Part shown: positions 8,000 to 24,583 of the stretch, piece by piece
Layout of the letters: each line of letters starts with the position of its first letter
How positions within the stretch are numbered: position 1 is the first letter of the stretch
Source: Phytohabitans houttuyneae
Lineage (GTDB): Bacteria > Actinomycetota > Actinomycetes > Mycobacteriales > Micromonosporaceae
DNA length: 64,000 nucleotides
Assembly (NCBI RefSeq): GCF_011764425.1
Contig: NZ_BLPF01000001.1
Coordinates: 2,781,001 to 2,845,000, forward strand
Direction of reading: 5' to 3'
Program-made: the position numbers and the translations under genes
The notes under the pieces: generated by a model
The model's input: the letters and a program-made list of their open reading frames with translations, nothing else
Told to the model about the DNA's origin: nothing
Databases searched by the model: none

Positions 8000-8935
8000 T
8001 CACCTGGCGAGGGCGGCGACCAGCTCGGGGCTCGGGGTGGCCCGCAGCCGCGACGGGCTGGCCAGGGCCTTGGCGGCCGCGCGGCTCGCCCTGTTGCCCA
8101 GCGCGGCGCGGCTGGTCTCGCGCAGCAGCAGTGCCGCCCAGTAGGCCGCCGTGGGCACGCTGCCGTGGCGGCGGCGGTAGAGGCGCACGCGGTTGAGGTT
8201 GAGCAGTGCCCAGAGGCCGGGCGACTGCTTGGACTCGCCCTCAAGGTGCACGGCCAGCGCGGACGGTGCCAGGCGGGTCGGCAGGCCGGCGTCGCGGGCG
8301 CGCAGTGCGAAGTCGGTCTCCTCGGAGTAGAGGAAGAAGGACTCGTCCCACGGGCCGACCCGGGACCAGCACTCGGCGCTCAGCAGCATCGCGGAGCCGG
8401 CGGCCCAGTCGGCCTCGGTCTCGGCGCCGTAGAGGTGGTCGCTGACCACGAGCTCGCCGAACAGGCGGAACCGGCCGGCCCGGTGCGCGCCGAGCACGGC
8501 GTCGCCGAGGGCGCGCAGCGGGCTCGGCTCGCGGCGCAGCACGTGGATGACCGAGCCGTCACCCCGCTCCAGCCGCGGCACGACGATGCCGGCGGTGCTG
8601 CCGCGGAGCACGGCGAGCAACTCCAGCCCGCACTTGGGTGCCAGGCGGATGTCCGGGTTGAGCACGAGGACGGCCGTGTGCGGCCTCGCGGCGGCCACGG
8701 CTGCGTTGATGCCCGCCGCGTAACCCGCGTTGCGCCCCATCTCCACCACGACGCTGCCCGGCGCCAGCCGCTTGACCGCCGCCGCGCTCCCGTCGGCGGA
8801 GGCGTTGTCGGCCACGGTGAGGTGCCACGAGATGCCTTCCAGGCCGGGGCCGAGGGAGGCGATCAGGTCGGCGAGGAGCCGCTTGCTGTTGTAGGTGACG
8901 ACGACTACCGCGATCGTCTCCTCGGCCTGGCTCAA
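8000..8935 (-). CDS. Glycosyltransferase family 2 (rhamnosyltransferase-like)
   Basis: GT2 enzyme of 311 aa. Seen: VVVVTYNSKRLLADLIASL at the N-terminus, VADNASADGS, MGRNAGYAAGINA, the metal site VLNPDIRL (N-x-D form, as in WbbL/RfbF-like rhamnosyltransferases), and the acceptor-side signature GPWDESFFLYSEETDFALRA. No membrane segments. Start is an unusual TTG at 8935, supported by GGGGAG 5 nt upstream and by the absence of another in-frame start before the fold begins. Probably adds a deoxysugar to a cell-wall glycan or its lipid-linked precursor. The 3' end is followed at once by the 116-bp repeat. Confidence 0.88.
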   Translation of the reverse strand: MSQAEETIAVVVVTYNSKRLLADLIASLGPGLEGISWHLTVADNASADGSAAAVKRLAPGSVVVEMGRNAGYAAGINAAVAAARPHTAVLVLNPDIRLAPKCGLELLAVLRGSTAGIVVPRLERGDGSVIHVLRREPSPLRALGDAVLGAHRAGRFRLFGELVVSDHLYGAETEADWAAGSAMLLSAECWSRVGPWDESFFLYSEETDFALRARDAGLPTRLAPSALAVHLEGESKQSPGLWALLNLNRVRLYRRRHGSVPTAAYWAALLLRETSRAALGNRASRAAAKALASPSRLRATPSPELVAALAR

Positions 8936-9154
8936 CCCGACTCCCCTGTTGCTCGCTCACGACTGGCGGCCGCGCTGATCCGGGCGCCGGCGCCACGACC
9001 ATCCTGCCGTCCCGCATGGCCACCACGGTTCCGTCGTCCGGGTGAGAGAGGTGTCGGCAACCCGTCGGTCGGGGGACGGTCCATCCGGTCAGTCGTTGTT
9101 CTCCCGCCTTCGGCTGATTCGTCGGTCAGGATCATCGGCGTAGCGTCGAGCGCC

Positions 9155-10267
9155 ATGGCCGATACTTTGCCGCCCGCACCACCGCGGGAGGCACCTTCCA
9201 CCGACGCGCGGGAGGCGGAGCCCGCGACCCGCCCACTGGACGTGCTGGAGGCGCCGCCCGAGCAGGCACCCAAGGTGGCTCCCAGCCGCAAGCGGCGCTG
9301 GTGGCGGCTCGTCGCGCTCATCGTGGGGCTGTCACTCGTGCTGGGCGCGGCGGCGAGCGGGGGCGCGCTGTGGCTGTACGCGCGGTCGGTCGAGGGCGAG
9401 ATCGAGCGGGTGGACGCGTTCGCGGGCGTGCCCGAGCAGGCCCGTCCGCCGGTGGTCGTCGAGGAGGCGCTCAACTACCTCGTGGTCGGCAGCGACTCCC
9501 GGGCGCCGGACAGCACCGACGGCTCGCGCACCGACGCGATCCTCCTGATGCACGTCGCGGCCGACCGCAAGAGCGGCCAGATGGTCTCCATCCCCCGCGA
9601 CACGTGGGTCCAGGTGCCCAAGTCGGCCGACGGGCGGCACGGCGGCGTCCAGGCGAAGATCAACGCCAGCTTCGCGTGGGGTGGTGCGCCGCTGCTCGTA
9701 CAGACGGTGGAGAGCTTCACGGGCGTACGCATCAACAACGTGATCATCGTGGACTTCGCGGGCTTCCAGGAGATCATCGACACGCTCGGTGGGGTGGACA
9801 TCGACGTGGACGCCAACTTCCGCTCGATCCACGCGCCTTTCCGCAGCTTCACCAAGGGCCCCCAGCGGATGGACGGCGCGACGGCGCTGGACTACGCGCG
9901 CCAGCGCTACCAGTTCAGCGACGGCGACTTCACCCGCGTGCGGCACCAGCAGCAACTGGTCCGCGCGGTGCTCACCAAGGCGACCGAGAAGGGCCTGATG
10001 AAGGACCCGGGCCGGCTCAACGGCTTCCTCCGCGCCACCGCCCACTCGGTCAGCGTGGACAAGGGGCTCGACCTTTTCGGTACCGCGTGGGCGCTGCGCG
10101 ACCTGCGCGCCGACGACATCACGTCGCTCACGAGCCCCTCCCAGTCCACCGGCATGGTGGGCGACCAGAGTGTGGTCTTTCCGGACGAAGAGGCAGCCGC
10201 CGGCCTCTACAAGGCGATCCAGAACGACGAGATGGACACCTGGCTCCTGGAGAATCCGCAGGGCTGA
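9155..10267 (+). CDS. LCP (LytR-CpsA-Psr) family glycopolymer transferase
   Basis: LCP enzyme, 370 aa, which moves undecaprenyl-linked glycopolymers onto peptidoglycan (or arabinogalactan) outside the membrane. A cytoplasmic Pro/Glu-rich head (1-50) precedes one membrane segment at about 52-75. The extracellular LCP domain has YLVVGSDSRAP, RTDAILLMH, VSIPRDTWV, INASFAWGG, DTLGGVDI and ALDYARQRY, all standard. The ATG at 9155 is the start that places the membrane segment correctly; the open frame upstream is non-coding. With the glycosyltransferases around it, it could ligate the polymer made by this locus (inference). Confidence 0.92.
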   Translation: MADTLPPAPPREAPSTDAREAEPATRPLDVLEAPPEQAPKVAPSRKRRWWRLVALIVGLSLVLGAAASGGALWLYARSVEGEIERVDAFAGVPEQARPPVVVEEALNYLVVGSDSRAPDSTDGSRTDAILLMHVAADRKSGQMVSIPRDTWVQVPKSADGRHGGVQAKINASFAWGGAPLLVQTVESFTGVRINNVIIVDFAGFQEIIDTLGGVDIDVDANFRSIHAPFRSFTKGPQRMDGATALDYARQRYQFSDGDFTRVRHQQQLVRAVLTKATEKGLMKDPGRLNGFLRATAHSVSVDKGLDLFGTAWALRDLRADDITSLTSPSQSTGMVGDQSVVFPDEEAAAGLYKAIQNDEMDTWLLENPQG

Positions 10268-10340: not shown

Positions 10341-11003
10341 GTGGCTCTTCATTCGATTCGCCGGCGACTTGTCGACTCGCCGGACTCCTGGGGTGCGAAG
10401 CGCCGTGCGCGGCGGGCGCAGTGGCTGAGCGAGACGTTTCCGGATCTCGCCCAGATGTCCGTCATCGACCTTGGTGGGCGGGTCGACACCTGGGAGCGCG
10501 CGCCGGTGCGGCCCAAGCACGTCCACGTGGTCAACCTCGAGCCGATTCCCGGCGAGCTGCCGGAGTGGGCCGAGCTTGACTACGGCGACGCCTGCGCGCT
10601 GCCGGAGCACATCGCGAAGCGCCGCTACGACCTCGTCTTCTCCAACTCGGTGATCGAGCACGTCGGCGGCCACGAGCGGCGCCTGCGCTTCGCCGAGTCG
10701 ATCCACGCGCTCGCCGACGCGCACTGGGTGCAGACGCCCTACCGCTACTTTCCGATCGAGCCGCACTGGGTAGCGCCCGGCATGCAGTTTCTGCCGGTCT
10801 CGCTGCGCACCACCGTCGCGCACCGGTGGCCGCTGGCGCACACGCCGGCCAAGGACCGCGACGACGCGCTGCAGTCCGTGCTCTGGACCGAGCTCATCGA
10901 CAAGACGCAGATGCGCCACTACTTTCCACAGTCGACGATCCGCAGCGAGCGCATCTTCGGGCTCACCAAGTCGATGATCGCCTACAAGCTGCCGGGCGCC
11001 TGA
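10341..11003 (+). CDS. Class I SAM-dependent methyltransferase
   Basis: Predicted methyltransferase of 220 aa, with the Rossmann motif MSVIDLGGRVDTWER (motif I), NLEPIPG (acidic end of beta 2) and DLVFSNSVIEHVG (motif IV, as in glycan-tip or small-molecule methyltransferases). The GTG at 10341 is the first start that begins the conserved part. The gene is 73 nt after the LCP gene and its last 22 nt overlap the convergent hydrolase gene. Substrate unknown; O-methylation of a surface glycan is plausible from the context. Confidence 0.82.
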   Translation: MALHSIRRRLVDSPDSWGAKRRARRAQWLSETFPDLAQMSVIDLGGRVDTWERAPVRPKHVHVVNLEPIPGELPEWAELDYGDACALPEHIAKRRYDLVFSNSVIEHVGGHERRLRFAESIHALADAHWVQTPYRYFPIEPHWVAPGMQFLPVSLRTTVAHRWPLAHTPAKDRDDALQSVLWTELIDKTQMRHYFPQSTIRSERIFGLTKSMIAYKLPGA

Positions 11004-11809
11004 CGCTGGGCCGGACCCGCGACCGGCACGTCGGAGAAGGCGGCGACAGTCCGGTCGGCGTACGCGCTCGCGTCGCCGAACTCCATCGGACCGTCCCATG
11101 TGGACGGTAGTGGGACAGCCACGTCCGGCGCGACCCGGGAGACGATCTCGTCCAGCACCCGCTCGGCGTCGCCCACCCACAGGTGCTTGGCCCCGTCGAC
11201 GCCGATGACCTCGGCCTGCGGGACGGCGGCGAAGCGCTCGCGGGCCTCCTCCGGTCGCAGGTAGTCGTCGAGCTCGGGCACCAGGGCGGTCACCGGCTTG
11301 CCGGACTCGGCCCACACCGCCAGGTCGTCGTCGGTGGCGAAGCGCAGCGGCGGGGAGAGCAGGATCGCGCCGGCCACCGACGGGTCGCAGCCATACTTCA
11401 GCACGAGGTCGGTGCCGAACGACCAGCCGACAAGCCACACGTTGGGCAGCGAGGCGAACTCCGCGTACTCGATCGCGGCGGCCACGTCGAACCGCTCGCC
11501 GACCGCCTTGTCGAACTGTCCCTCGCTCGTGCCCCGCACGCTGCTCGTGCCCCGCGTGTTGAACCGCAGCACCGCGAGCCCGGCCAGCGCGGGCAGCCGC
11601 CACGCCGCCTTGCGGAACAGGTGGCTGTCCATCATGCCGCCGTGGGTGGGCAGCGGGTGGACGCAGATCAGGGTGCCGGCCGGCGGGGTGTCACCGGCGG
11701 GGAGGGCCAGCTCGCCGACGAGCTTGAGGCCGTCGGCGGTGTGCAGCTCGATGTCCTCCCGCCGCCCTGGCAGGATCGAGTTGGCGCGGATCGGTTCGCT
11801 CACTCCCAC
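10982..11809 (-). CDS. Alpha/beta hydrolase
   Basis: Alpha/beta-hydrolase of 275 aa, COG2945-like. The oxyanion region CVHPLPTHGGMMD, strand LAVLRFNTRGTSSVRG, nucleophile elbow GWSFGT (Ser) and a late GAKHLWVG (His) are in the right order; the acid is probably in LVPELDD. Last gene of the leftward operon that begins at 19847, lying 6 nt after the zinc-ribbon gene. The GTG at 11809 is taken as start; a second GTG two codons on is possible. It could be an esterase trimming acyl groups; no substrate can be assigned. Confidence 0.85.
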   Translation of the reverse strand: MGVSEPIRANSILPGRREDIELHTADGLKLVGELALPAGDTPPAGTLICVHPLPTHGGMMDSHLFRKAAWRLPALAGLAVLRFNTRGTSSVRGTSEGQFDKAVGERFDVAAAIEYAEFASLPNVWLVGWSFGTDLVLKYGCDPSVAGAILLSPPLRFATDDDLAVWAESGKPVTALVPELDDYLRPEEARERFAAVPQAEVIGVDGAKHLWVGDAERVLDEIVSRVAPDVAVPLPSTWDGPMEFGDASAYADRTVAAFSDVPVAGPAQRQAPGSL

Positions 11810-11815
11810 AGTCTT

Positions 11816-12097
11816 TCACCGCCGCCGCTCGCGGGCCCGCCAGCAGCCGGTATGCCAGTGGCGGCGGTCACCCTCGTCGCCGCGGCCGTCGACCGGCCAG
11901 GCCACCACGTGCGGGGTGCCGGGACGGATCTCCTGGTTGCAGCCGGGACACCGGTACGTCTTCGTGGACGTTTTGCCGGGTATCGTGCGTACCGCCCACT
12001 CGCCGTCGCTCCACTGCTGCACCCGCTGCACACCCTGCCGGGCGCGGTCGAGGTCGAGCGGCGGGACGTCGTCCCGGTCGGGGTTGCGGCGTGGCAT
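11816..12097 (-). CDS. Small zinc-ribbon protein (often labelled ATP/GTP-binding protein)
   Basis: 93-aa cytoplasmic protein found across actinobacteria and often labelled ATP/GTP-binding protein, although I see no P-loop. It has a CPGCNQEI knuckle followed by HVVAWP and HWHTGCW, a Cys2-His-Cys pattern fit for one zinc. The N-terminus (MPRRNPDRDDVPPLD) and the RARERRR tail are charged. It sits 5 nt after the FkbM gene and 6 nt before the hydrolase gene in the same operon, but its job there is unknown. Confidence 0.8.
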   Translation of the reverse strand: MPRRNPDRDDVPPLDLDRARQGVQRVQQWSDGEWAVRTIPGKTSTKTYRCPGCNQEIRPGTPHVVAWPVDGRGDEGDRRHWHTGCWRARERRR

Positions 12098-12102
12098 GGG
12101 TC

Positions 12103-12852
12103 TCAGGGCAGGCGGGCGTACACGTCACCCGAACGGCCCGACGGCCGCAGCCGCTCCAGCAGTGCCAGCAGGCCCGGCATGTCGAGCCACTCGTCGCTCA
12201 CCCAGCGCGCGGTCTCGGCGAGCGAGTAGTTGTACCGGTATCCGCCGGCGGCGGCGCCGAGCTTGTCCACCATGTCGAGCGTGGCCATGGAGGCGTCGTG
12301 CGCGGACGGCACGTACTCGACGGAGAGGGCGCGCACCGGCCGGGAGAGGCCCGCCAGCACCTGGGTCTCGAAGCCTTCAACGTCGATCTTGCAGAACGCC
12401 GGCTCGCCGTACCGCTTGACGAGCTCGTCGAGCGTGACGACCTCCACCTCGACCGAGCGGTCCCACCGCACGCTCTGGAACGAGCGGTCCGCCGCGACCG
12501 AGTCCATCCACTCGCGGGACATCGAGGAGACCGTCGGGTTGGTGGTGGAGAGGGCCAGCGACGCGCGCCCGGACTGCTCGCCGACAGCGCTGGGCACGAG
12601 CGTGACGCCCTTGTCGCGCCCGAAGAACAGGCGCAGGACGCGCAGGCAGTCCGGCTGCGGCTCCACCGCGATGACCCGGGCGCCCAGCTTGCGCCACGCG
12701 CGCACCCGGCTGCCGACGTGCGCCCCGATGTCGAACCCGAGGTCGCCGGGGCCGAGGAACTCGCTGTAGAGCCGCCGCATCCGCCGATGCTTGGTCGGCT
12801 GGCCGTGGTAGATGACCAGGGAGCGGGCGATCCCCCAGACGCGGTCGAGCAT
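12103..12852 (-). CDS. FkbM family methyltransferase
   Basis: SAM-dependent O-methyltransferase of the FkbM family, 249 aa. Seen: DLGFDIGAHVGSRVRAW (motif I), VIAVEPQPDCLRVL (motif II), and the FkbM hallmark FCKIDVEGFETQVLAGL. Family members methylate hydroxyls of sugars and polyketides and are common in surface-polysaccharide loci. It lies 17 nt downstream of the lipoprotein glycosidase gene and 5 nt upstream of the zinc-ribbon gene. Inferred role: methyl decoration of the glycan made by the membrane GT2 of this operon. Confidence 0.9.
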   Translation of the reverse strand: MLDRVWGIARSLVIYHGQPTKHRRMRRLYSEFLGPGDLGFDIGAHVGSRVRAWRKLGARVIAVEPQPDCLRVLRLFFGRDKGVTLVPSAVGEQSGRASLALSTTNPTVSSMSREWMDSVAADRSFQSVRWDRSVEVEVVTLDELVKRYGEPAFCKIDVEGFETQVLAGLSRPVRALSVEYVPSAHDASMATLDMVDKLGAAAGGYRYNYSLAETARWVSDEWLDMPGLLALLERLRPSGRSGDVYARLP

Positions 12853-12869
12853 GCTGCGACGCTACCCCC

Positions 12870-14024
12870 TCAGCTTGCTCGTTTTGGGTCCTTGGCGAAG
12901 CAGCGGGCGATGTTCTGCTCGCCCGGCCGGCCCAGGAAGTCCATCGGTGACTTGCTCGACGGCTTCGCCTTGGGGTCGGTGTCGAGGTTGATCATCCAGA
13001 AGTAGATGCCGCCCAGGTCGCGCTCGCGCATCACCTGGCACGCGGTGTCGAACCAGCGCTGCTGGATCTCCGGCTTGAGCGTGCCCTTGGCCTTCGGCGA
13101 CCACGGCTCCTGGTACGCCCCCGAGCGGGCCCCGATCGCCACCTCGGCGAGCACGAGGGTGGGCAGCTCGCCGGTGCCGACGGCGTCGTCGAGCCAGTCG
13201 TTCCACCCGTCGACGAGCCGGCTCACCGAGGCGCTGTCGCCCACCTCCAACGGCGGGTACGCGTCGACGGAGAGCGTGATGCCCGGCGCCGGACCGCTTT
13301 CCTTGAGGCGGTCGTAGTTGGCGCTGTAGTCGATCTCGCCGGAGTACACCTCCTTGACGCCGGTCGCGACCGTGCGCCAGCCGGTGGTGCTGGTCTCCAT
13401 CGTGTTGAGCTCGGTGCCGACCACGAACGTCGCCGACTTCGCCGCCTCGGCCACCTTCGCGTACTGGATGAGCATGTCCGTGTACGAGGCGAACCACTTC
13501 GTGCGGTTTTCCGGCCGGATCGAGCCGCGCCACATGTCCGGGTCGTCCTTGGTCAGGTTGCGCTCGTTGAGCATCGGGCGTACCGCCGTGCGCAGCCCGC
13601 GCTTGTTGGCCTCGTCGAGCACGATCTCCAGGCGGGCGGGAGACGGCGTGATGGGGTGGTCCATCCGCACCGCGTTCGCGTACGCCGAGTCCATGACGAA
13701 CGAGAACGAGATGGAGACCGAGTTGGCGCCGAGCTCGACCACGTGGTCGAGGACCTTCTGCGCCTTGGCCCGCACGATCTGATCGGTGTCGTCCTGGTTG
13801 TTTTCCCAGTAGACCGCGATCCCGTACTGCCGCATGCCCTCCTGCCACGGCTCGCGCACCTTGACGACCTCGGGCTCGGCCGGCGTGCTCGCGCCGGGCT
13901 TTCCACCGGCGGCAGGCGGCGGCCCTTCGGAGAGGCGCTCCAGCGGGTCGCCCTCGCCGGACGAGCAGCCAGCGGCAAGCAGCACCGCCAGTGCGGCGGC
14001 GCAGCGGGCGACGGCGGCCCTCAT
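12870..14024 (-). CDS. Lipoprotein glycoside hydrolase-like TIM-barrel protein
   Basis: Secreted lipoprotein of 384 aa: the signal MRAAVARCAAALAVLLAAGC ends in lipobox LAAGC. The mature part looks like a clan GH-A (GH113-like) TIM barrel: YGIAVYWENN, GANSVSISFSFV, TFVVGTELNTM (Glu205, candidate acid/base), LVLAEVAIG (Glu294, candidate nucleophile) and GIYFWMINLD. The ATG at 14024 overlaps the stop of the GT2 gene (ATGA), which favours it over longer frames. Expected to cut or edit a beta-linked glycan outside the cell, comparable in position to the hydrolase that accompanies bacterial cellulose-type synthases. Substrate not readable. Confidence 0.8.
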   Translation of the reverse strand: MRAAVARCAAALAVLLAAGCSSGEGDPLERLSEGPPPAAGGKPGASTPAEPEVVKVREPWQEGMRQYGIAVYWENNQDDTDQIVRAKAQKVLDHVVELGANSVSISFSFVMDSAYANAVRMDHPITPSPARLEIVLDEANKRGLRTAVRPMLNERNLTKDDPDMWRGSIRPENRTKWFASYTDMLIQYAKVAEAAKSATFVVGTELNTMETSTTGWRTVATGVKEVYSGEIDYSANYDRLKESGPAPGITLSVDAYPPLEVGDSASVSRLVDGWNDWLDDAVGTGELPTLVLAEVAIGARSGAYQEPWSPKAKGTLKPEIQQRWFDTACQVMRERDLGGIYFWMINLDTDPKAKPSSKSPMDFLGRPGEQNIARCFAKDPKRAS

Positions 14025-15556
14025 ATCGGCTTGGCGATCACGACGAACTGCTGCTGACCGCCGCGCAGGTAGCGGATCAGCCCGCGGATCGCGCCGATCC
14101 CCTCCATGAGCGAGAAGAACGGGACGAGCAGGATCACCGCTATCCCCTCCCACCATCGGTACTTGGCGCGGCGGGAGACGCTCACGTTGATGCGCAGGCC
14201 CTCGGAGTAGAGCCAGATCGCGAACGCCATGTTGAGCGCCCAGACCGGGAGCACGAGCAGCGTGATCGGCACGGTGTCGAACGAGCCGAGCGCCCAGCCC
14301 AGCAACAGGATCGTGCCGAGGTGCTGCAGCGGGCTGATCACCCACGTGAACGTCGAGTATCCAATGTAGAGCCTGTCGCGCAGCGGGATGCGGTCGTCGA
14401 GCGAGAGCCCGATCAGGCCCCACGCCCACCGCTCGCGCTGGCGGAAGAAGTCGCGCACGGTGGCCGGCGAGGCGCCGTAGCAGCGGCCGGCGAACCAGGC
14501 GCTGCGCCCCGGGTACCGCCGGCTGAAGATGAGCGCGAACTGCGCGTCCTCGACGATCGCCTCCGGACCGAAGTCCCAGCCGATCTCGGCCTCCACCGAC
14601 GCGCGGACCAGCAGCAGCTCGCCGTGCACGCCGGCCAGCGGGTGCCCGCCGCCGGTGAACGCCGAATACACCGTCACGTCGGCGATCGGGCGGCTCGCGT
14701 CGGCCAGCCAGGTGAGGCGGCTGCGGGCGTGCTCGCGCGGGTACGTCAGGATGCCCTGTGCCATGTGGCAGGCCTTGTCGCCGAGGTCGCGCTGCTGCTC
14801 GATGAGGCGGGCCAGCGCGATCGCGGTGTCAAGGCCGACGCCGGTGTCGTCGTCCATGTGCAGCACCCAGACGTCGTCCCGGTCTTCGTGCTGGGCGATG
14901 CGCAGCTCGTGCGCGTAGTTGTTGGCGCGCGACTTGAACTTGGTGCCGTTGACCGTGTGGTAGCTCTGCGGCACGGTGACCACCCGGATGTACCGGCTGA
15001 TCTCGGCCAGCTTGTGGATCTTTTCCGCCGCCTCGCAGCCCTCTTCGATCACCACGTCGACGCGGAGCTTGGGGAAGCACTCCGGCAGGTACGTGATGTA
15101 CGAGTGGACGACCCGGTCGAGCGCCGGATATGTGTCGTGGCGGCCGATCGTCGGCACGACCACCACGAGCCGGTCCTTGCACCGGATGATCTGGTCGTCG
15201 GCGGCGGTGAGCCGGTCGCGGCGCAGGCGGCGCCGGGTGATGAGGGCACCCACGATGCCCACGACCGTGCCGATCACCGGGTAGGTCCACACGATCGTCA
15301 CCACCGCGCCGAGCGGCCCGGTCGACTTGACGCTCAGCCACAGCGTGACGGCGAGGACGGCGAGGAACCAGACGGCCAACGGCCACATCCGCGGAAGCCA
15401 GCCGGCATGACGCTGCGCCATCGTGGTGGCACGCGGTGTGATCGGCATGCGCACGGCGGGCATGACGTGCGTCTCGCCGGGATGGTGTTGGCGGGGAATG
15501 ATCTGCGTCCGCTCACCCGGCTCGTCGCGGCGCGAGGCAGCGACGTGCATCGTCAC
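14021..15556 (-). CDS. Membrane glycosyltransferase family 2 (processive synthase-like)
   Basis: Integral membrane GT2, 511 aa. Two hydrophobic segments lie at about residues 60-105, a GT-A domain in the middle (VVVVPTIGRHDTYPAL; HMDDDTGVG near 234; an acidic GPEAIVEDAQFA), QRERW near 372, then about four membrane segments. D,D,D,QxxRW is the signature of processive synthases such as cellulose, chitin and hyaluronan synthases and CslA, so it may extend and export a beta-glycan. The GTG at 15556 overlaps the previous stop (GTGA); ATG 15550 is the alternative. No PilZ domain. Co-encoded with a GlxA-like oxidase and a glycosidase. Confidence 0.85.
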   Translation of the reverse strand: MTMHVAASRRDEPGERTQIIPRQHHPGETHVMPAVRMPITPRATTMAQRHAGWLPRMWPLAVWFLAVLAVTLWLSVKSTGPLGAVVTIVWTYPVIGTVVGIVGALITRRRLRRDRLTAADDQIIRCKDRLVVVVPTIGRHDTYPALDRVVHSYITYLPECFPKLRVDVVIEEGCEAAEKIHKLAEISRYIRVVTVPQSYHTVNGTKFKSRANNYAHELRIAQHEDRDDVWVLHMDDDTGVGLDTAIALARLIEQQRDLGDKACHMAQGILTYPREHARSRLTWLADASRPIADVTVYSAFTGGGHPLAGVHGELLLVRASVEAEIGWDFGPEAIVEDAQFALIFSRRYPGRSAWFAGRCYGASPATVRDFFRQRERWAWGLIGLSLDDRIPLRDRLYIGYSTFTWVISPLQHLGTILLLGWALGSFDTVPITLLVLPVWALNMAFAIWLYSEGLRINVSVSRRAKYRWWEGIAVILLVPFFSLMEGIGAIRGLIRYLRGGQQQFVVIAKPI

Positions 15557-17166
15557 ACGGCTTCCTTCCGGGTCAGCAACGCGACGGTGTAGCCCGTTGT
15601 CCACCAGCTGTCCGCGACATCATAACGTTCCTTAAGGACGTCCTTCTTGCTTCCATCGAGGTCATCGAGTGGATCTCCGTACTCCCCGAGGCGAAGCACC
15701 CACAGCCGCCGCGTCTCGCCGAGCCGGACCGCGACGTCCTGGTGCTCGCTGGCCACCATCCAGCCGTCGGTGCGCATCGGGCGGTCCATGAGCAGGTCGG
15801 TGGGGCGCCGGTTGGCCGGCAGGTAGTGCGCGATCACGTCACGGTTGAGCACGCCGGGGCCGCGGTCCTTCAGCCCGTACACAATCCCGTCGCCGGGCTG
15901 GAAGTCACGCTCGATCAGCGCCACGACCGCCTTGGTGTCCTGGTACCGGAACGCCGGCTTGCGCACCTCGGCCTGGCCGGGCAGGGTCAGCACGGCCAGC
16001 ACCGCAATCGTGGCGGTCGCCGCGAGCAGCCCGCGCTTGGCCAGCAGCAGGCCGACGAGCACCGCCCAGCCGACGATCGTGTAGAGCACGTACCGCTGCT
16101 GCCACAGGTGGGCGACCGAGCCGAGGGCCATCAGCAGCGCCACCGGCACGACGCCGAGAGTGATGGCCACCACAGCGCCCCGCTCGCGGGAGACCGCCGC
16201 CACACCGAGGGCGATGACCGCGCCGCCGATGAGCGCGCCGCCGAAGAACTCCAGCCCGTACGCCTCGATCTGGTGCAGGTCGGTGAACGGGATCCAGCCG
16301 ATCTGGTTTCCCTGCTGCCGGCGCCCGATCAGGATGATCGGGATGAGCGGTATCAGGCCGACGAACGCGCTCGGCCCCCACCGCCACACAAGCTTGCGCT
16401 TGAGGAGCAGGACGGCCAGGCCGTGCGCCGCGAGCATCAGCAGTGCGACGAGGTGCATGGCGCCCAGCGCGGCCACGGCGGCGCCGTAGGCGAGCGCGAG
16501 GCCGAGCGTGTAGCCCTCCAGCATGCGGATCAGCAGCAGCGTGGCCACCGCCGCGGCGAGCGTCGCCATCGCGTACGGCCGGGCCTCCTGCCCGAAACGC
16601 GTGGTGATGGGCAGGATCGCGAAGGTGAGGCCGGCGATCAGGCCGATGCGGTGCGAGCCGAGGCGGATGCCGATCAGGCCGACCACCGCCGCGGCGCCGA
16701 CCATCGCGAGCAGCGACGGCAGGCGCAGTGACAGGTCGGAGTCGCCGAAAACGGTGGTCCAGATGCGGATCAGCACGTAGTACGGGCCGATGGTGGCGTC
16801 GGTGCCGTCGAGCTGGCGCCACAGCTCCGCCCACGAAACCGTGGTGATGCCCCACGTCGCGAGCTCGTCGGCCCACAGGCCGGTGCCGGTCAGCCCGACG
16901 ACGCCGAGCGCGAGCGTGACCAGAGCCGGCGCGCCCCAGGCGATCCGGCGCTGCCACGCCTCCCGCCGCAGCTTGCGGTCAGCCTCTTCCTGCGACGGCG
17001 ACTTCGGCAGGAGCATCGTCGCGTCCGCCGGCGGAGGCGGGTCCGGCGGGGTCACCACTCCGACCCGGCGCGGCAGGGGAATGTGCACTTCCCCGTTGGG
17101 GGTCGCCACCGGAAGTTGCGAGCGAGCGGCCCTGTTCATCGGAGCAGGATAGACCGGCGCGTCCAC
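15553..17166 (-). CDS. GT-C membrane glycosyltransferase (GT39/mannosyltransferase-like)
   Basis: Polytopic GT-C enzyme, 537 aa, using a lipid-phosphate sugar donor on the outer face of the membrane. The first extracytoplasmic loop carries the acidic GT-C motif LWADELATWGI. About eleven hydrophobic segments follow, then a soluble tail with DDLDGSKKDVLKERYDV. The N-terminal 65 residues are cytoplasmic and Pro-rich. I take GTG 17166, which has AAGGGGG 7 nt upstream; TTG 17172 and ATG 17139 are alternatives. It overlaps the GT2 gene by 4 nt (GTGA), so both probably build the same surface glycan. Confidence 0.85.
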   Translation of the reverse strand: MDAPVYPAPMNRAARSQLPVATPNGEVHIPLPRRVGVVTPPDPPPPADATMLLPKSPSQEEADRKLRREAWQRRIAWGAPALVTLALGVVGLTGTGLWADELATWGITTVSWAELWRQLDGTDATIGPYYVLIRIWTTVFGDSDLSLRLPSLLAMVGAAAVVGLIGIRLGSHRIGLIAGLTFAILPITTRFGQEARPYAMATLAAAVATLLLIRMLEGYTLGLALAYGAAVAALGAMHLVALLMLAAHGLAVLLLKRKLVWRWGPSAFVGLIPLIPIILIGRRQQGNQIGWIPFTDLHQIEAYGLEFFGGALIGGAVIALGVAAVSRERGAVVAITLGVVPVALLMALGSVAHLWQQRYVLYTIVGWAVLVGLLLAKRGLLAATATIAVLAVLTLPGQAEVRKPAFRYQDTKAVVALIERDFQPGDGIVYGLKDRGPGVLNRDVIAHYLPANRRPTDLLMDRPMRTDGWMVASEHQDVAVRLGETRRLWVLRLGEYGDPLDDLDGSKKDVLKERYDVADSWWTTGYTVALLTRKEAV

Positions 17167-17199
17167 AAGCAAACCCCCTTGTTGGGCACGTTTATTCGG

Positions 17200-17745
17200 T
17201 CAGTCCCCGGCGCCACAGGCGGTCCCGTCGCCGTTGCGATCGAGGCCGTGCCGGTCACGCCCTCCAGTGATCTTAAGCGGTTTGAATCCGCGCTCTTTCA
17301 GCCAACCGCACTTGTCGGTCACTCCCGCCGGAAACTCCCACGGTACGCAAATGTCGCGATCGCCATAGGCGTGGTCGCAACCGTCCGTACCCTCCTCGAT
17401 CTCGACCCCCGCCGTCGGCGAGGGCAGCGGTGCGCGGGGCTTGACCCCCGGCTGCTCCGCGAAGGGCTGCACGTACGGCGGCGGCGACTCGACCGGCGCG
17501 GCCGGCTGGCGCCCGCCGCTTTCCTGCCCTGCCTCCGGGGCCTGGCCGCTGTCCGGCGCCGTCTCGTCGGCCGGCGCCGCGGCGGGCTTGCCGTCAAACC
17601 AGAGCAGGTCACTGTCGCTCCCGCCGGCCACCGCTACGCCAGCGAGCCCCAGCACGAGCGCGGCGGCTACCGCCGCGATCCCGATACGGTCACGGCGGCT
17701 GCGGGCCCTGAGCCAGGCGGCCAGGGCCCGGTACCAACGAGTCAT
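17200..17745 (-). CDS. Membrane-anchored excalibur (calcium-binding) domain protein
   Basis: 181-aa protein with a basic head, one membrane segment at about residues 22-41 (IGIAAVAAALVLGLAGVAVA), a Pro/Ala/Glu-rich linker and a C-terminal excalibur domain ending DRHGLDRNGDGTACGAGD. In that motif the D-x-N-x-D Asp/Asn pattern resembles an EF-hand loop and the Cys pair closes the fold. Excalibur domains are extracellular, often in nucleases and wall proteins; here the domain stands alone. The ATG overlaps the oxidase stop (ATGA), so the two are translated together. A wall or glycan-binding accessory to the oxidase is an inference. Confidence 0.85.
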   Translation of the reverse strand: MTRWYRALAAWLRARSRRDRIGIAAVAAALVLGLAGVAVAGGSDSDLLWFDGKPAAAPADETAPDSGQAPEAGQESGGRQPAAPVESPPPYVQPFAEQPGVKPRAPLPSPTAGVEIEEGTDGCDHAYGDRDICVPWEFPAGVTDKCGWLKERGFKPLKITGGRDRHGLDRNGDGTACGAGD

Positions 17746-19847
17746 CCGAGCTTGACCCACTTGGCGATCGAGGGAACGCCGTTGGCGTTGTGGACAAAGA
17801 GCATGTACCACCCGGGCGGGGCCAGGTTGGGGTTGCTCGTCACGTTCAGGTCGATGGTGGTGGCGTTTCGCACCGTCATCGGCAGCTCGACGAACCGCTG
17901 GTTGGGGTCGGACGAGTGGGTCACGGCCGCCGGACGGATCAGCGACGCCCGGGTCACTCCGGAATTCACGGTGATCCGCTGGGTCGTGCCGTATCCCCAG
18001 TTGGTGTTGGCCACGGTCTGGATCGCCGGCCGCGCGCCCTTGAACATGTACGGCGGCGAGTAGATCGAGATGCGCGTGTCGAACGTGCCGTTGCCGGGGT
18101 TGTCACCGACCGCCATGACCCGGCCGTCGGGCAGCAGGAACGCCGACGAGTGGTACGTGCGCGGCACCGGGTCGGTCGCCATGCCGGCGCGGAACTTGTT
18201 GGTCTGCGGGTCGAAGATGGACGCCTCGAAGACCGGGTCGGCCCGGTTGTGCAGCCCGCCGCCGGTCTCGAAGACGGTGCCGTCCGGCAGCAGCACGAGC
18301 GAGACGTACATCTTGCCCTGGTCGCCGGTCTGCGGCGCACCGCCAGTCAGCGTGCCCTGCGGGATGAGCGGACCCGCCTGGTAGCGCGGGCTCGCCGCCT
18401 TGAGGTCGATGAGGTCGGTGAGCCGGTGCGCGGTCGCGCCGGCGTCGCCGTTGCCACCGCCGACGGTGAACACCCGCTGCGCCTGCGCGGGCGGCAGCAG
18501 CACGCTCATCGACTGGTCGCGCTCGTCCTTGCGCTGCAGGCCGGGCACGTCGGTGATGGTGCCGTTGCCGTAGTTGTAGATGGACGCCCCGCTGCCCGGC
18601 AGGCCCACGCCGAACGTGTGGCTGCCGGTGTAGAAGAGCCGGCCGTCCTGCATCAGCACCATCGCCGGGTACAGGCCCCACCACGCCCAGGTCTGCTTCG
18701 TCTCGTCCTGGCGCAGCCAGCGCCCCTCGGATGCCTTGAAGTAGTCGGTGGTGGTGCTGCCGGTCGAGTCCTCACCGAGGCCGCCGAGCGAGAGCACGTC
18801 GCCGTTGCCGAGGATCGTCGCCGACGGGTACCAGTGGCCGACGAGCATGTCGTTCGTGCGCGTGTACCTGTTTGTGGCCGGGTCGAAGATGTACGAGTTT
18901 TTCAGGCCCTTGTAGCCAACCGTGCCGTCGGCGCTCGGATAGTCCTTGTTGCCGCCCATCACCAGCACCTTGCCGTCGCGCAGCTGCACGTGCCCGGCGC
19001 AGAAGAGGTCGACGGGCGTGGCCACGTTGGTGAAGGCGCCGGTCGCCGGGTCGTACACCGCGGTCTTGAACGTGCCGGCGGCGAACGCGTTGGGGTCGTT
19101 GCCGGAGCCCGCGACGAGCAACACCTTGCCGTTGTTGAGCATCACCGCGTGGACGCCGCGCACCGCCGACTGGTACGGCATGACCTGCCACTTGCCCTTG
19201 GTGCAGCCGGCCGCGTCGGTGCAGCCGCTGGGCGTGGGCGTCGGCGTGACCACCTCGACCATCGAGTAGTCGTCGGTCGTCAGCGTGCCGAGGGCGTAAA
19301 TGCTGACGCCCCAGGTGATCTGGTCGGTGTTGGCCGGGATCGGCGGCGTACGCACGACCTTCTGCGTCCAGGCGGTGGTGGCCGGCAGGGTCGCCGGATC
19401 CATCCAGTACTGCCAGCCGAGCGCGGTGTCGTGGCGGAAGAGCGTGACGGCGTTGGCCGCGGTGGTCGACTTGTAGTAGACGGACAGGTCGTACTGACGA
19501 CCGGGTGCGACGCGAGGAGCACACTGCGCGTTTTCCAGCATCATCGCCTTGCGGTCGCCCGAGACGAGGCGCGTGATGCTCACCCGCATCGCCCGCGAGC
19601 CGCTGCGCGCGTCGGTGGTCACGCCCATCGTGAACGTGTTGTCACCGTGCCCCGACCGCTCCCAGCAGGTCGGAAAACCGTTGGCGTCCAACGTCTCCAG
19701 GCCCGGGTTTTGCACCAGGTTGACGGCGGCCTGCGCCGGTGTGGCGACGAAGACGCCGACGGTCAGCATGAGAGCGAAGGCGAGCAGCCGGCCGAGTCCA
19801 CGGCGGAGCTCAGGGCTGAACATCGGGACGGCTTTTGCGGGAGGCAC
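17742..19847 (-). CDS. Copper-radical oxidase (GlxA / galactose oxidase-like, kelch + DUF1929)
   Basis: Secreted oxidase of 701 aa. GTG 19847 is chosen for AGGAG 5 nt upstream; the signal peptide ends at TPAQA near residue 40. An N-terminal carbohydrate-binding-like domain (about 42-200) is followed by a seven-bladed kelch propeller and a DUF1929 E-set domain. All radical-site residues are present: Cys283 (LFCAGH) and Tyr340 (HWYPS) for the Tyr-Cys cofactor, Tyr565-His566 (RTYHSS) and His644 (VTHSSD). Known relatives use copper to oxidise primary alcohols to aldehydes with release of hydrogen peroxide. First gene of the operon to 10982; Streptomyces GlxA works with the CslA synthase at hyphal tips, and a synthase-like GT2 is encoded nearby. 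Confidence 0.9.
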   Translation of the reverse strand: MPPAKAVPMFSPELRRGLGRLLAFALMLTVGVFVATPAQAAVNLVQNPGLETLDANGFPTCWERSGHGDNTFTMGVTTDARSGSRAMRVSITRLVSGDRKAMMLENAQCAPRVAPGRQYDLSVYYKSTTAANAVTLFRHDTALGWQYWMDPATLPATTAWTQKVVRTPPIPANTDQITWGVSIYALGTLTTDDYSMVEVVTPTPTPSGCTDAAGCTKGKWQVMPYQSAVRGVHAVMLNNGKVLLVAGSGNDPNAFAAGTFKTAVYDPATGAFTNVATPVDLFCAGHVQLRDGKVLVMGGNKDYPSADGTVGYKGLKNSYIFDPATNRYTRTNDMLVGHWYPSATILGNGDVLSLGGLGEDSTGSTTTDYFKASEGRWLRQDETKQTWAWWGLYPAMVLMQDGRLFYTGSHTFGVGLPGSGASIYNYGNGTITDVPGLQRKDERDQSMSVLLPPAQAQRVFTVGGGNGDAGATAHRLTDLIDLKAASPRYQAGPLIPQGTLTGGAPQTGDQGKMYVSLVLLPDGTVFETGGGLHNRADPVFEASIFDPQTNKFRAGMATDPVPRTYHSSAFLLPDGRVMAVGDNPGNGTFDTRISIYSPPYMFKGARPAIQTVANTNWGYGTTQRITVNSGVTRASLIRPAAVTHSSDPNQRFVELPMTVRNATTIDLNVTSNPNLAPPGWYMLFVHNANGVPSIAKWVKLG

Positions 19848-19930: not shown

Positions 19931-20794
19931 TCACTGTCCGAGTGGACTTATGTCCAGCCTGGCAAGCCGATCCGGGTCCACAAGAATGTCCAATGCAGTC
20001 ACCTTGCCGCCACGGATCGTAAACGCCATGACCGACGTGACCCGCTCGCCGTCGCTCGCCACCAGGCCGGGTACGCCATTGACGAGCGCGAGTACGGCCG
20101 CGCGCCCCATCCGGGAGTAGGTGACGGCGTTCGTGGCGAGTGTCCTGGCTCCGCGCACCGCGGGACCCTTGTCGGGCCGGGCGACAACGTCGGGGTCGAG
20201 CACGGCGAGCAGCGCCTCGATGTCGCCGCCGCGGGCGGCCGCGAGAAACGCTTCCACCACCGCGCGCTGGCCGGCCAGGTCGCCGTCGGACATCGGCTCC
20301 GCACCGCGCACCCGGCGGCGGGCCCGGCTGGCCAGCTGCTTGGCGGCGGCCGGCGAGCGACCGAGGATCGGCCCGATCTCCTCGAACGGCACCGCGAACG
20401 TGTCGTGGAGCACGAACGCGAGCCGCTCGGCGGGCGCCAACTGTTCGAGCACGACGAGCAGCGCCAGCCCCACCGAGTCGGCCAGCAGCGCCTCCTGCTC
20501 GGGGTCCGGCCCGTCCGCGCGGCTGATGATCGGCTCAGGCACGTGCACGCCCAGCGGCTCCTCGCGCCGCGCCCTGCGGGTGCGCAGCATGTCCAGGCAC
20601 ACCCGGCCGACCACGGTGGTGAGCCAGCCGCCGAGGTTGGTGACGTCGCTCGTGTCGGCGCGGGTCAGCTTGAGCCACGCCTCCTGCACCGCGTCGTCCG
20701 CCTCGCTCACCGAGCCGAGCATCCGGTACGCCACCGCGCGCAGGTGGCCGCGGTGCGCCTCGAAACGCTCGGCCATCCAGTCGTACTCGTTCAT
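19931..20794 (-). CDS. sigJ: ECF RNA polymerase sigma factor, SigJ/ECF41 type
   Basis: Extracytoplasmic-function sigma factor, 287 aa, with sigma region 2 (AYRMLGSVSEADDAVQEAWL), region 4 (EQLAPAERLAFVLHDTFAVP, ILGRSPAAAKQLASRARRR) and a C-terminal SnoaL-like domain of about 110 aa. The domain and the DPDRLARLD segment near the end (family motif NPDKL) mark ECF41, whose fused extension replaces an anti-sigma factor. ECF41 genes usually sit beside a carboxymuconolactone decarboxylase, oxidoreductase or epimerase gene; none is adjacent. The oxidase operon starts 83 nt downstream on the same strand, so it may be a target or be read through. Start ATG 20794. Confidence 0.88.
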   Translation of the reverse strand: MNEYDWMAERFEAHRGHLRAVAYRMLGSVSEADDAVQEAWLKLTRADTSDVTNLGGWLTTVVGRVCLDMLRTRRARREEPLGVHVPEPIISRADGPDPEQEALLADSVGLALLVVLEQLAPAERLAFVLHDTFAVPFEEIGPILGRSPAAAKQLASRARRRVRGAEPMSDGDLAGQRAVVEAFLAAARGGDIEALLAVLDPDVVARPDKGPAVRGARTLATNAVTYSRMGRAAVLALVNGVPGLVASDGERVTSVMAFTIRGGKVTALDILVDPDRLARLDISPLGQ

Positions 20795-22840: not shown

Positions 22841-23819
22841 ATGGCGAAGCTGTGGGGTTGGTGGACCCGACACAAGCTCCAGATCTTGGAAGACTATCTC
22901 CAAGCGTTCGCGACAGCGACGAAGTCCGTCGAGGAACGCATCTATCTGGACCTCTTTGCCGGCTGGTCGGAAAACATCAGCCGCGAGACCGACGAGCAGA
23001 TCCTCGGCTCCGTGCACCGCGCGCTTCGTGCGACACCGCCGTTCACCCGTCTTTGCCTGTTCGAGGTGGAGGGCAAGGCGCAGCGGATCGAGGCCGCGAT
23101 CCACAAGGCCTATCCCGGAAGGAAGGGCATCGCCGTCTACCCGGGTGACTGCAACATCCAAGTCTCACGGGCCCTCGTCGACCTACGCAGGGTGGCCTGG
23201 GCACCTACGTTCGCCTTCATCGACCAGTTCGACTCCGAGGTCCATTGGTCCACTTTGGAGAAGATAGCCAACTTCCGCCTTCGCGGCCCCAAGGCCGAGA
23301 TGTGGATCCTCTTCGCAACGGGGCAGTACCCGCGCGGCCTGAACATCCACGGCGACGAACTCAACTCGACCTACGGCGACACACTCACACGAATGCTCGG
23401 CACGGAAGAGTGGATCAATATCGCCGAAGCACGCAGGCGGGGGATTCTTGACCCGGGGCGCCGCACGCGGCGAATGGGTCAATCTGATGCGTTGGCGCTT
23501 GGAGCACGCCCTCGGCTACGCCGCCTCACATGCGTTCACCATGAAGAACACCAACGGCAACGATATCTACGACATGATCTTCACGACGGATCATCCCGTC
23601 GGCGCGAAGATCATGAATCACCTATACGCCACGGCGCTTTCACAGCATGAGGCGATGCGCCAGCACGCACTGGCGTTGCGCAGAGACAGACGGCGAGAGG
23701 ATGCCGGAAGCCCGTCGCTCTTTGCCGTCACCCCGGAAATGATCAGAGCACCGGCTACGGCCGCCGATCATGGATACGTACATGAACCTCCCCACGAGCC
23801 GTACCAACTACCCCGCTAG
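22841..23819 (+). pseudogene. tcmP: Three-Cys-motif partner protein TcmP, frameshifted
   Basis: Partner of the three-Cys-motif protein encoded convergently next door; biochemical function unknown. ATG 22841 has GAGGA upstream. The first frame gives RIYLDLFAGWSENIS, CLFEVEGKAQRIEAAI, FAFIDQFDSEVHWSTLEKIA and AEMWILFATGQYPRG, then leaves the family pattern after EWINIAEARRR. The family C-terminus (EWVNLMRWRLEHALGYAA, NTNGNDIYDMIFTTDHPVGA, KIMNHLY) continues one base later in another frame to 23819. One extra base in or near the GGGGG run at about 23439-23443 explains the break. Base composition is visibly less GC-rich than in the neighbours (33 of 60 at 22921-22980), suggesting transfer. Broken gene or sequencing error cannot be separated here. 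Confidence 0.85.
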
Positions 23820-24583
23820 CCAGCCACCGGCAGCACCGGCTCCAACCGCCGACGCGGCATCTCGTCCCAGGTTTGGCCGTCCAATAGGCGGCCACCGGCC
23901 TTCGGCGTACGACCTCCCCACTGTTTGAAAAAGAACGCCACCTCAGCCTCGGCGCACGCCTCCCGCAATTGCCGTAGCCATGCTGCCGCCACCGGCCGCG
24001 CGTTTGGCCCCGACTCTCCGCCGGCAATCAGCCAGTCCATGCCAGTCAGATCAATCCCGTCAAGCGGCCCTAGAAGCGGCTCGGCGGAAACGAACCGTAC
24101 CGCGGCGGGGACGCCGCGGAGGCGATCCAGTCGATCAAGGTGACCGGCGTCCTCCACGCTCACCCCCATCCAGACGTTGTCGGGCCACACCAGCTCAGGC
24201 GCCAGGCGACTGAGGCGGCTGGCCCGCTTCGTCAGGACCTGATAGGTGTGCCGCGGCGTGGCGGCCATGACCTCGAAAACCTTGTGCACAAAGGCGACCG
24301 GCACCCGCGCGTGAAACAGGTCGCTCATCGAGTTGACGAAGACGACGCGTGGCTCACGCCACCGCAACGGTGTTTCCAGCGCGTCCGCATGGACGGCAAC
24401 GCCGAACCCAGGGCCGGAGGTGCGCGGATCCCCATCGTTCTGGTACTTCGACGAACCCATCGCCTTCAGACGTTTCGCCAACACGAGGGCATAGCAATTG
24501 TCGCAACCGGCCGACACGCGGTCACATCCCGTAGTCGGGTTCCATGTCGCCTCGGTCCATTCGATGGCGCTCCGATCCGCCAC
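23816..24583 (-). CDS. Three-Cys-motif protein, phage Gp37/Gp68 family (DUF5131)
   Basis: 255-aa protein of the DUF5131/Gp37-Gp68 family, found in phages and scattered bacteria. The defining cysteines are Cys20, Cys27 and Cys30 in TTGCDRVSAGCDNCYA (C-x6-C-x2-C), preceded by IEWTEATWNP and followed by LAKRLKAMG. The body has VFVNSMSDLFHARVP, YQVLTKRASRLSRL, NVWMGVSVED, VSAEPLLGPLD and WLIAGGESGPNARP, a TIM-barrel-like, radical-SAM-like layout, though activity has not been shown for this protein. GTG 24583 has GAGGGG upstream. It is convergent with tcmP; the two stop codons share CTAG at 23816-23819. Low GC suggests that the pair moved in together. Confidence 0.88.
   Translation of the reverse strand: MADRSAIEWTEATWNPTTGCDRVSAGCDNCYALVLAKRLKAMGSSKYQNDGDPRTSGPGFGVAVHADALETPLRWREPRVVFVNSMSDLFHARVPVAFVHKVFEVMAATPRHTYQVLTKRASRLSRLAPELVWPDNVWMGVSVEDAGHLDRLDRLRGVPAAVRFVSAEPLLGPLDGIDLTGMDWLIAGGESGPNARPVAAAWLRQLREACAEAEVAFFFKQWGGRTPKAGGRLLDGQTWDEMPRRRLEPVLPVAG

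Follow-up and report, generated by a model that had tools for sequence, protein, structure and literature searches.

A putative β-mannan synthase operon with a GlxA-like copper radical oxidase in Phytohabitans houttuyneae and related actinobacteria

Results

A conserved operon for a glycan synthase, a hydrolase and a copper radical oxidase

Within a stretch of 64,000 nucleotides (nt) of its 11.34 Mb genome (contig NZ_BLPF01000001.1, positions 2,781,001 to 2,845,000; hereafter the window), the soil actinomycete Phytohabitans houttuyneae carries an operon that combines a membrane glycosyltransferase of family GT2 with a glycoside hydrolase and a GlxA-like copper radical oxidase. All six genes named in the original prediction were found on the minus strand where it had placed them. 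They are transcribed in the order oxidase, excalibur-like protein, GT-C glycosyltransferase, GT2, GH113 lipoprotein and FkbM-type methyltransferase, followed by genes for a 93-amino-acid (aa) protein and an alpha/beta-hydrolase. The genes had been described as linked mostly by 4-nt overlaps. This holds for three of the five junctions (oxidase/excalibur, GT-C/GT2 and GT2/GH113), but the other two are gaps, of 17 nt between GH113 and FkbM and of 27–90 nt, depending on the start chosen, between excalibur and GT-C. A scan of the operon for promoters and terminators gave no promoter-like site and three terminator-like sites against 2.8 expected; since neither signal exceeds chance, cotranscription is argued here from gene spacing.

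The synteny check proposed at the outset showed that the five genes from oxidase to GH113 recur together in eight other genomes, with the two halves divergent in one (L085, genome G077) and some frames broken in another (L087, genome G057). Their co-location exceeds chance, and the operon is a genuine, conserved system whose general plan of synthase, copper oxidase and hydrolase is a known one. In L087 (6240–11653) the GT-C, the GT2 and the flanking hydrolase are each split into two overlapping pieces beside an intact oxidase, reflecting either decay or sequencing error.

The oxidase belongs to a sister subfamily of GlxA and is paired with an excalibur-like protein

The oxidase gene (17742–19847, minus strand; GTG start at 19847) encodes an N-terminal hydrophobic segment (aa 17–35), a carbohydrate-binding module (CBM)-like N-terminal domain, a kelch propeller and a galactose oxidase-like E-set domain that scores above the cut-off of PF09118 (93 bits). 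The radical-site residues Cys283, Tyr340, Tyr565, His566 and His644 are present at the positions originally given, and the second-sphere Trp339 can be added to them. All six are kept in 21/21 members of the oxidase subfamily, which were drawn from 121 sampled genomes of the window's bacterial family. With its Cys, two Tyr, two His, Trp and E-set domain, the enzyme has the make-up of an AA5-like oxidase. The GlxA structure (PDB 4unm) was matched with an E value of 4e-78, whereas the score against the GlxA equivalog model NF052501 was 390.3 bits, under its 800-bit cut-off. The N-terminal domain (19227–19727, minus strand) was modelled by AlphaFold2 with a predicted local distance difference test (pLDDT) score of 93.8 as a beta-sandwich that Foldseek and VIA-align matched to the CBM4/CBM22/CBM16 kind; it has no counterpart when aligned to Streptomyces lividans GlxA. 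The oxidase is a member of a GlxA sister subfamily in which the CBM-like domain is present and GlxA's inserted domain 2 is absent.

The adjoining gene (17200–17745, minus strand) encodes a Pro-rich protein with a transmembrane (TM)-like segment (aa 21–39) that would anchor it and with a C-terminal domain described originally as excalibur. Its PF05901 score of 16.7 bits falls below the cut-off of 22, but the motif and conserved Cys are visible, hence "excalibur-like". Such a domain adjoins the oxidase on its downstream side (19) or is fused to it (2) in every subfamily member, and the fusion was seen in all 13 f33 genomes examined. Wider searches with the oxidase gave matches in 2/298 genomes at order level and 34/394 at class level, own genome included in both; gene contexts from the latter cover 20 of the other matching genomes. 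At L290 (G150), outside the window's family, an oxidase::excalibur fusion that is only distantly related (47% identity) stands next to a BcsA-like GT2 and two GH26-type matches. A separate large group of PF09118 proteins of ~1,400 aa occurs within the same bacterial family (L116, L117, L120, L123, L125–L127, L130, L131, L134, L139, L141 and L142).

The GT2 represents a family distinct from CslA

The membrane GT2 (14021–15556, minus strand; PF13632, 73.7 bits) carries the DDD and QxxRW motifs claimed for it, the latter as QRERW (373–377), together with ED and FVVIAK (504–509). QxxRW and an invariant FxVIxK were present in all 78 rows of a family alignment from which the broken GT2 of L087 and GT2s cut by contig ends were omitted. 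The spacing between the two motifs is 131, compared with 132 for the FxVTxK gating loop of CslA, with T replaced by I, and is nearly equal to that in Escherichia coli BcsA. PgaC, a processive E. coli enzyme, has no FxVxxK; processivity can therefore do without this motif, which instead indicates the BcsA/CslA type. The original prediction had named a non-processive GT2 as a finding that would undo its comparison with CslA-GlxA. The gating-loop-like motif at this spacing points away from that, although the fold is less discriminating: the structural model (pLDDT 85) is PcManGT/HAS/BcsA-like, with about equally good matches to enzymes of the glucan, hyaluronan and mannosyl types.

Against a hidden Markov model of the GT2 family, 13 rows of the family scored 711–914 bits and six CslA rows at most 12.7 bits. 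The CslA figures, including the motif spacing, come from these six rows, two wrongly picked neighbours (L133 and L150, 358 and 290 aa) having been excluded. The GT2 scored 11.5 bits against the CelA NCBIfam model. Membership of CslA was rejected on the family scores, by which the GT2 is a separate actinobacterial family, apart from CslA.

The GT2 is accompanied by mannanase-type hydrolases across actinobacteria

The gene downstream of the GT2 (12870–14024, minus strand) encodes a lipoprotein (lipobox LAAGC). Its earlier description as GH-A-like can be refined to GH113, a beta-mannanase family (PF22612, E 2.4e-32, 112.9 bits against a cut-off of 27), and its nearest solved relatives are the beta-mannanases 4cd6 (5.5e-18) and 3civ (7.2e-18). 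Glu205 and Glu294 are present and, following the original prediction and the family alignment, are the putative catalytic pair of what we predict to be a membrane-anchored endo-beta-1,4-mannanase.

GH113 scored above the cut-off in 16/121 family genomes, 11 of which have it beside the GT2. Of 94 relatives of the GT2 in a scan covering 84,980 genomes of named species, the best 80 were analysed, and as their loci share contigs with the family sample the two sets are not independent. These 80 occur in Streptomyces, Kitasatospora, Frankia, Pseudonocardia, Actinomadura, Dactylosporangium, Planosporangium, Plantactinospora, Asanoa and other genera. A mannanase-type hydrolase neighboured the GT2 at 77 of the 80 loci, 76 of these being strong matches: GH113 at 64, mannanase-type GH5 (presumably subfamily GH5_8) at 9, strong GH26 at 3 and weak GH26 at 1. 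No hydrolase was found at the other three, L166, L216 (where the contig ends at the gene) and L236. Over 84 loci, the 67 GH113 genes beside a GT2 were all on its strand, 62 of them within 100 nt, and the two glutamates were kept in 67 and 66 of them; a lipobox-like motif was seen in 10 and a hydrophobic N-terminal segment in 56. An extra GH26 match was present at 41 of the 64 GH113-bearing loci. In L186 (6776–8167) and other Streptomyces loci, a GH26-like gene lies upstream of the GT2 in addition to GH113 downstream, with a weak mannanase match where checked.

GH113, GH5 and GH26 belong to one clan, and GH5 and GH26 include other activities, so the argument for mannan rests on how closely these hydrolases match mannanases. 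Sampled partners of the GT2 matched solved mannanases with E values of 1.9e-114 (GH5), 2.2e-89 (GH26) and 5.3e-121 (a Frankia GH5), and more weakly for the Streptomyces GH26 (8e-19). In a midpoint-rooted tree of the GT2, loci with GH5 or strong GH26 group together within GH113-linked branches, which is most simply read as the GT2 having been kept while the hydrolase was exchanged. Collectively, these results lead us to predict that the GT2 is a beta-1,4-mannan (or glucomannan) synthase, and we regard its link to mannanases as strong.

The oxidase accompanies three types of cassette, which alternate at one locus

Nine of the 21 oxidases lie beside a type M cassette (GT-C, GT2 and GH113, including the divergent and the broken locus), three beside type G (GT-C, a BcsA-like GT2 and a lichenase-like GH26) and seven beside type D (another GT2 and a PMT-like GT-C, joined in three cases by a separate DPM-like GT2); two have no cassette adjacent. 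The type G GT2 is closest to BcsA (3e-31) and its GH26 to 'Endoglucanase H' (E 5e-29), which we take to be the C. thermocellum lichenase. GT-C, oxidase and excalibur are thus common to all three types, and GT2 and hydrolase vary. The f33 loci (L271–L283) have a type D cassette that ends in the oxidase::excalibur fusion, with GT2 and PMT-like GT-C in 13/13 and the DPM-like GT2 in 11.

Within the window's genus, cassettes share their flanks, with the alpha/beta-hydrolase and the 93-aa protein on one side and a hydroxyacyl-CoA dehydrogenase on the other (83–91% flank identity for the two type G loci of the genus). At this shared locus, type M was found in G000, G057 and G103 and type G in G031 and G091. 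Searches for the type M GT2 in G031 and G091 (E 0.001) and for the type G GT2 in G000, G057 and G103 (E 1e-30) gave no match, and CslA was found in none of the five genomes. G091 has a second type G-like GT2 elsewhere in its genome, and G077 has one weaker CslA/BcsA-like match. In the oxidase tree, the type G oxidases of the window's genus cluster with that of G048, from another genus (support 100/99), and the oxidases of G000, G057 and G103 with ones from Plantactinospora and Asanoa (node 94/93). This grouping by cassette across genera suggests that oxidase and synthase were probably replaced together. An exception is the type M oxidase of G077 (L085, window's genus), which groups with the type G clade at weak support (87/75). 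Cassette type changes five times on the tree compared with a shuffled mean of 15, and a count as low was reached in 0/200 shuffles, a result to which near-copies contribute.

GT-C, FkbM and the flanking genes

The GT-C glycosyltransferase (15553–17139, minus strand, start uncertain between 17109 and 17172) has eight TM-like segments and matches the PMT_2 family (PF13231, 32 bits, cut-off 26.1). It scored 92.5 bits, under the 900-bit equivalog cut-off, against the NCBIfam MT1671 mannosyltransferase, a family that we take to correspond to Rv1635c. The protein is predicted to decorate or cap the chain using a polyprenyl-phosphate sugar. For the FkbM-type methyltransferase (12103–12852, minus strand; PF05050, 60 bits), a comparison with 158 other loci, those of congeners among them, gave no homologue (E 1e-5); in congeners, only a few bases separate GH113 from the 93-aa gene. 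It was rejected as a core part on these grounds and probably lies outside the core system, and the methylated glycan suggested originally is unsupported. The 93-aa protein and the alpha/beta-hydrolase (10982–12097) adjoin a different cassette in congeners; they were rejected as glycan genes for this reason and look like the flank of the locus.

Directly upstream of the oxidase (19931–20794, minus strand) lies a SigJ-like extracytoplasmic function (ECF) sigma factor with a SnoaL-type tail. It is similarly placed in L079 and, as a fragment, in L087. No other relative compared showed it next to the oxidase, and on that account it was rejected as a core part. On the other side, a small GT2 and a reading frame labelled LytR-type from its sequence only (8000–10267) adjoin the operon and are perhaps part of a separate exopolysaccharide region. 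At 22841–24583, an open reading frame without a Pfam match (plus strand) faces a DUF5131 gene (minus strand, E 1.1e-99).

Discussion

On balance, the product of the operon is probably a beta-1,4-linked mannan (or glucomannan) made at the cell surface, on which its enzymes would act stepwise. Gene content, conservation, motifs and co-occurrence are direct observations, and from context, motifs and fold we infer the following reactions. The GT2 would polymerise mannose, presumably from GDP-mannose, and extrude the chain by a TM channel of its own, in the way that BcsA and CslA extrude cellulose. The lipid-anchored GH113 endo-mannanase would cut chains or set them free while they are being made, filling the role that BcsZ, CslZ or plant MAN2/5 has elsewhere, and the GT-C, drawing on a polyprenyl-phosphate sugar donor, would attach sugars to the side or end of the chain outside the membrane. 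The CBM-like domain would tether the oxidase to the glycan, and either the N-terminal segment of the enzyme or its TM-anchored excalibur partner would hold it at the membrane. The oxidase would turn a primary alcohol of the glycan into an aldehyde, releasing hydrogen peroxide; like GlxA with CslA, it may in addition serve the synthase as a structural partner. The oxidase/excalibur pair is a module found beside different synthases. All three cassettes have oxidase, excalibur and a PMT-clan GT-C in common and differ in GT2 and hydrolase; for this reason, the oxidase may act on the sugar added by the GT-C rather than on the backbone. For GlxA, the processing of possible galactose units is offered only as a presumption in the available text of PMC11022532. 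We regard the link between oxidase and mannan as moderate.

The system resembles several known ones. The layout of Streptomyces CslA-GlxA(-CslZ, LpmP), as described in the available text of PMC11022532, is alike in its membrane GT2 with QxxRW and FxVxxK, its oxidase ligand set and its clustered hydrolase. The original analogy with CslA-GlxA thus holds for the layout but not for the GT2, which is not CslA, or for the oxidase, which lies under the GlxA cut-off, and the original view that the set is distinct is borne out by the GH113, the other GT2 family and the GlxA-sister oxidase. In contrast to CslA-GlxA, the operon also has the CBM-like domain, no inserted domain 2, an excalibur-like partner and a GT-C. 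GH113 stands in the place of a CslZ-type endoglucanase, and no family of lytic polysaccharide monooxygenases, the kind of enzyme that LpmP is, was found in a scan of ten proteins from the operon and its flanks that did not extend to the rest of the genome. BcsA-BcsB-BcsZ shares the GT2 fold as modelled, the gating-loop-like motif at nearly equal spacing (E. coli BcsA sequence) and a hydrolase in the operon; here, the GT2 lacks PilZ, no BcsB was found among the proteins scanned, a mannanase family replaces the endoglucanase, and an oxidase is added. In Arabidopsis, the mannanases MAN2/MAN5 are needed for normal glucomannan synthesis, and these endomembrane enzymes alongside plant CslA parallel a membrane-held endo-mannanase beside a mannan synthase (available text of PMC13181414). 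That likeness is one of roles, and the plant system has no oxidase. Bacteroidetes GH113 enzymes near GT2 genes have been proposed to build or remodel the cell's own polysaccharide; these are of clade 5 and mostly marine, and the available text of PMC9032380 reports no activity for them and has no oxidase or actinobacterial GT2 family. The imp cluster of the Actinoplanes sporangium matrix was considered and did not match, having GT4/Wzx-type genes and GH5 hydrolases in the available text of PMC12691653.

Synthesis of a mannan has to be weighed against other explanations and against one awkward precedent, a Streptomyces GH113 that was soluble yet inactive on mannans (available text of PMC9032380). 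The GT2 could make a beta-1,4 heteropolymer, such as a mixed glucomannan, of which the mannanase cuts only the mannose-rich parts. Several GH113 enzymes also cut glucomannan (Table 1 in the available text of PMC9032380), the GT2 fold is about equally near to glucan, hyaluronan and mannosyl enzymes, and CBM16 structures, by their PDB titles, bind both cello- and mannopentaose. Those of the neighbouring hydrolases that were checked, however, match mannanases and not endoglucanases, and we consider such a polymer rather unlikely. It is also unlikely that the operon comprises two independent modules that happen to be co-located, a mannan synthase with its mannanase and an oxidase/excalibur pair with another substrate, for example the GT-C product or other glycans of the wall. 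Each half does occur without the other (in the contexts of G090, G072 and G073, and at 73/80 named GT2 loci, which have no oxidase), the halves are divergent in G077, and GT-C, oxidase and excalibur recur with all three cassettes. Against this stand the 4-nt overlaps, the joint operon in three genera, the oxidase tree, which tracks cassette type, and the CBM-like domain that the oxidase carries.

A divergent CslA-GlxA cellulose system would account for the similar overall plan, the shared radical site and the CslA-like spacing of QxxRW and FxVxxK. CslA-GlxA makes cellulose in vitro, and CslA activity drops when much of the extracellular part of GlxA is removed (available text of PMC11022532). 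Such a system is very improbable here, given the family scores (CslA at most 12.7 bits, own family at least 711), the 390 bits of the oxidase against 800, and a GH113 hydrolase in place of the ~350-aa gene, presumed to be CslZ, that lies beside GlxA and CslA in this family. A locus for mannan degradation or attack on plants, suggested by a mannanase and an oxidase side by side in a plant-associated genus, is implausible with a synthase-type membrane GT2 and a GT-C in the same operon, a lipid-anchored hydrolase, and neither transporters nor exo-mannosidases in the set of ten proteins scanned.

We return to the synthesis of a beta-mannan. New here are the predicted beta-mannan synthase family, the CBM-bearing oxidase with its excalibur-like partner, and the exchange of cassettes at one locus; among the matches listed in the open-licence literature, there was no paper on a bacterial beta-mannan synthase and nothing on an excalibur domain paired with a copper oxidase. 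A broader proposal, which we put forward tentatively and at less than even confidence, is that a dedicated family of bacterial beta-1,4-mannan synthases extends across Actinobacteria and in several Micromonosporaceae has been joined to the oxidase/excalibur module, such that mannan would be oxidised while it is made. The module would then be an exchangeable finishing unit for at least three surface-glycan synthases, with whole cassettes swapped at one locus within a genus. The same module beside different synthases and hydrolases offers natural variants through which the role of GlxA-type oxidases in glycan synthesis can be tested, and the pairing of GT2 with hydrolase suggests a rule by which polymer type may be read from genome context. 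If the GT2 does make beta-mannan, bacteria would own a counterpart of plant hemicellulose synthesis.

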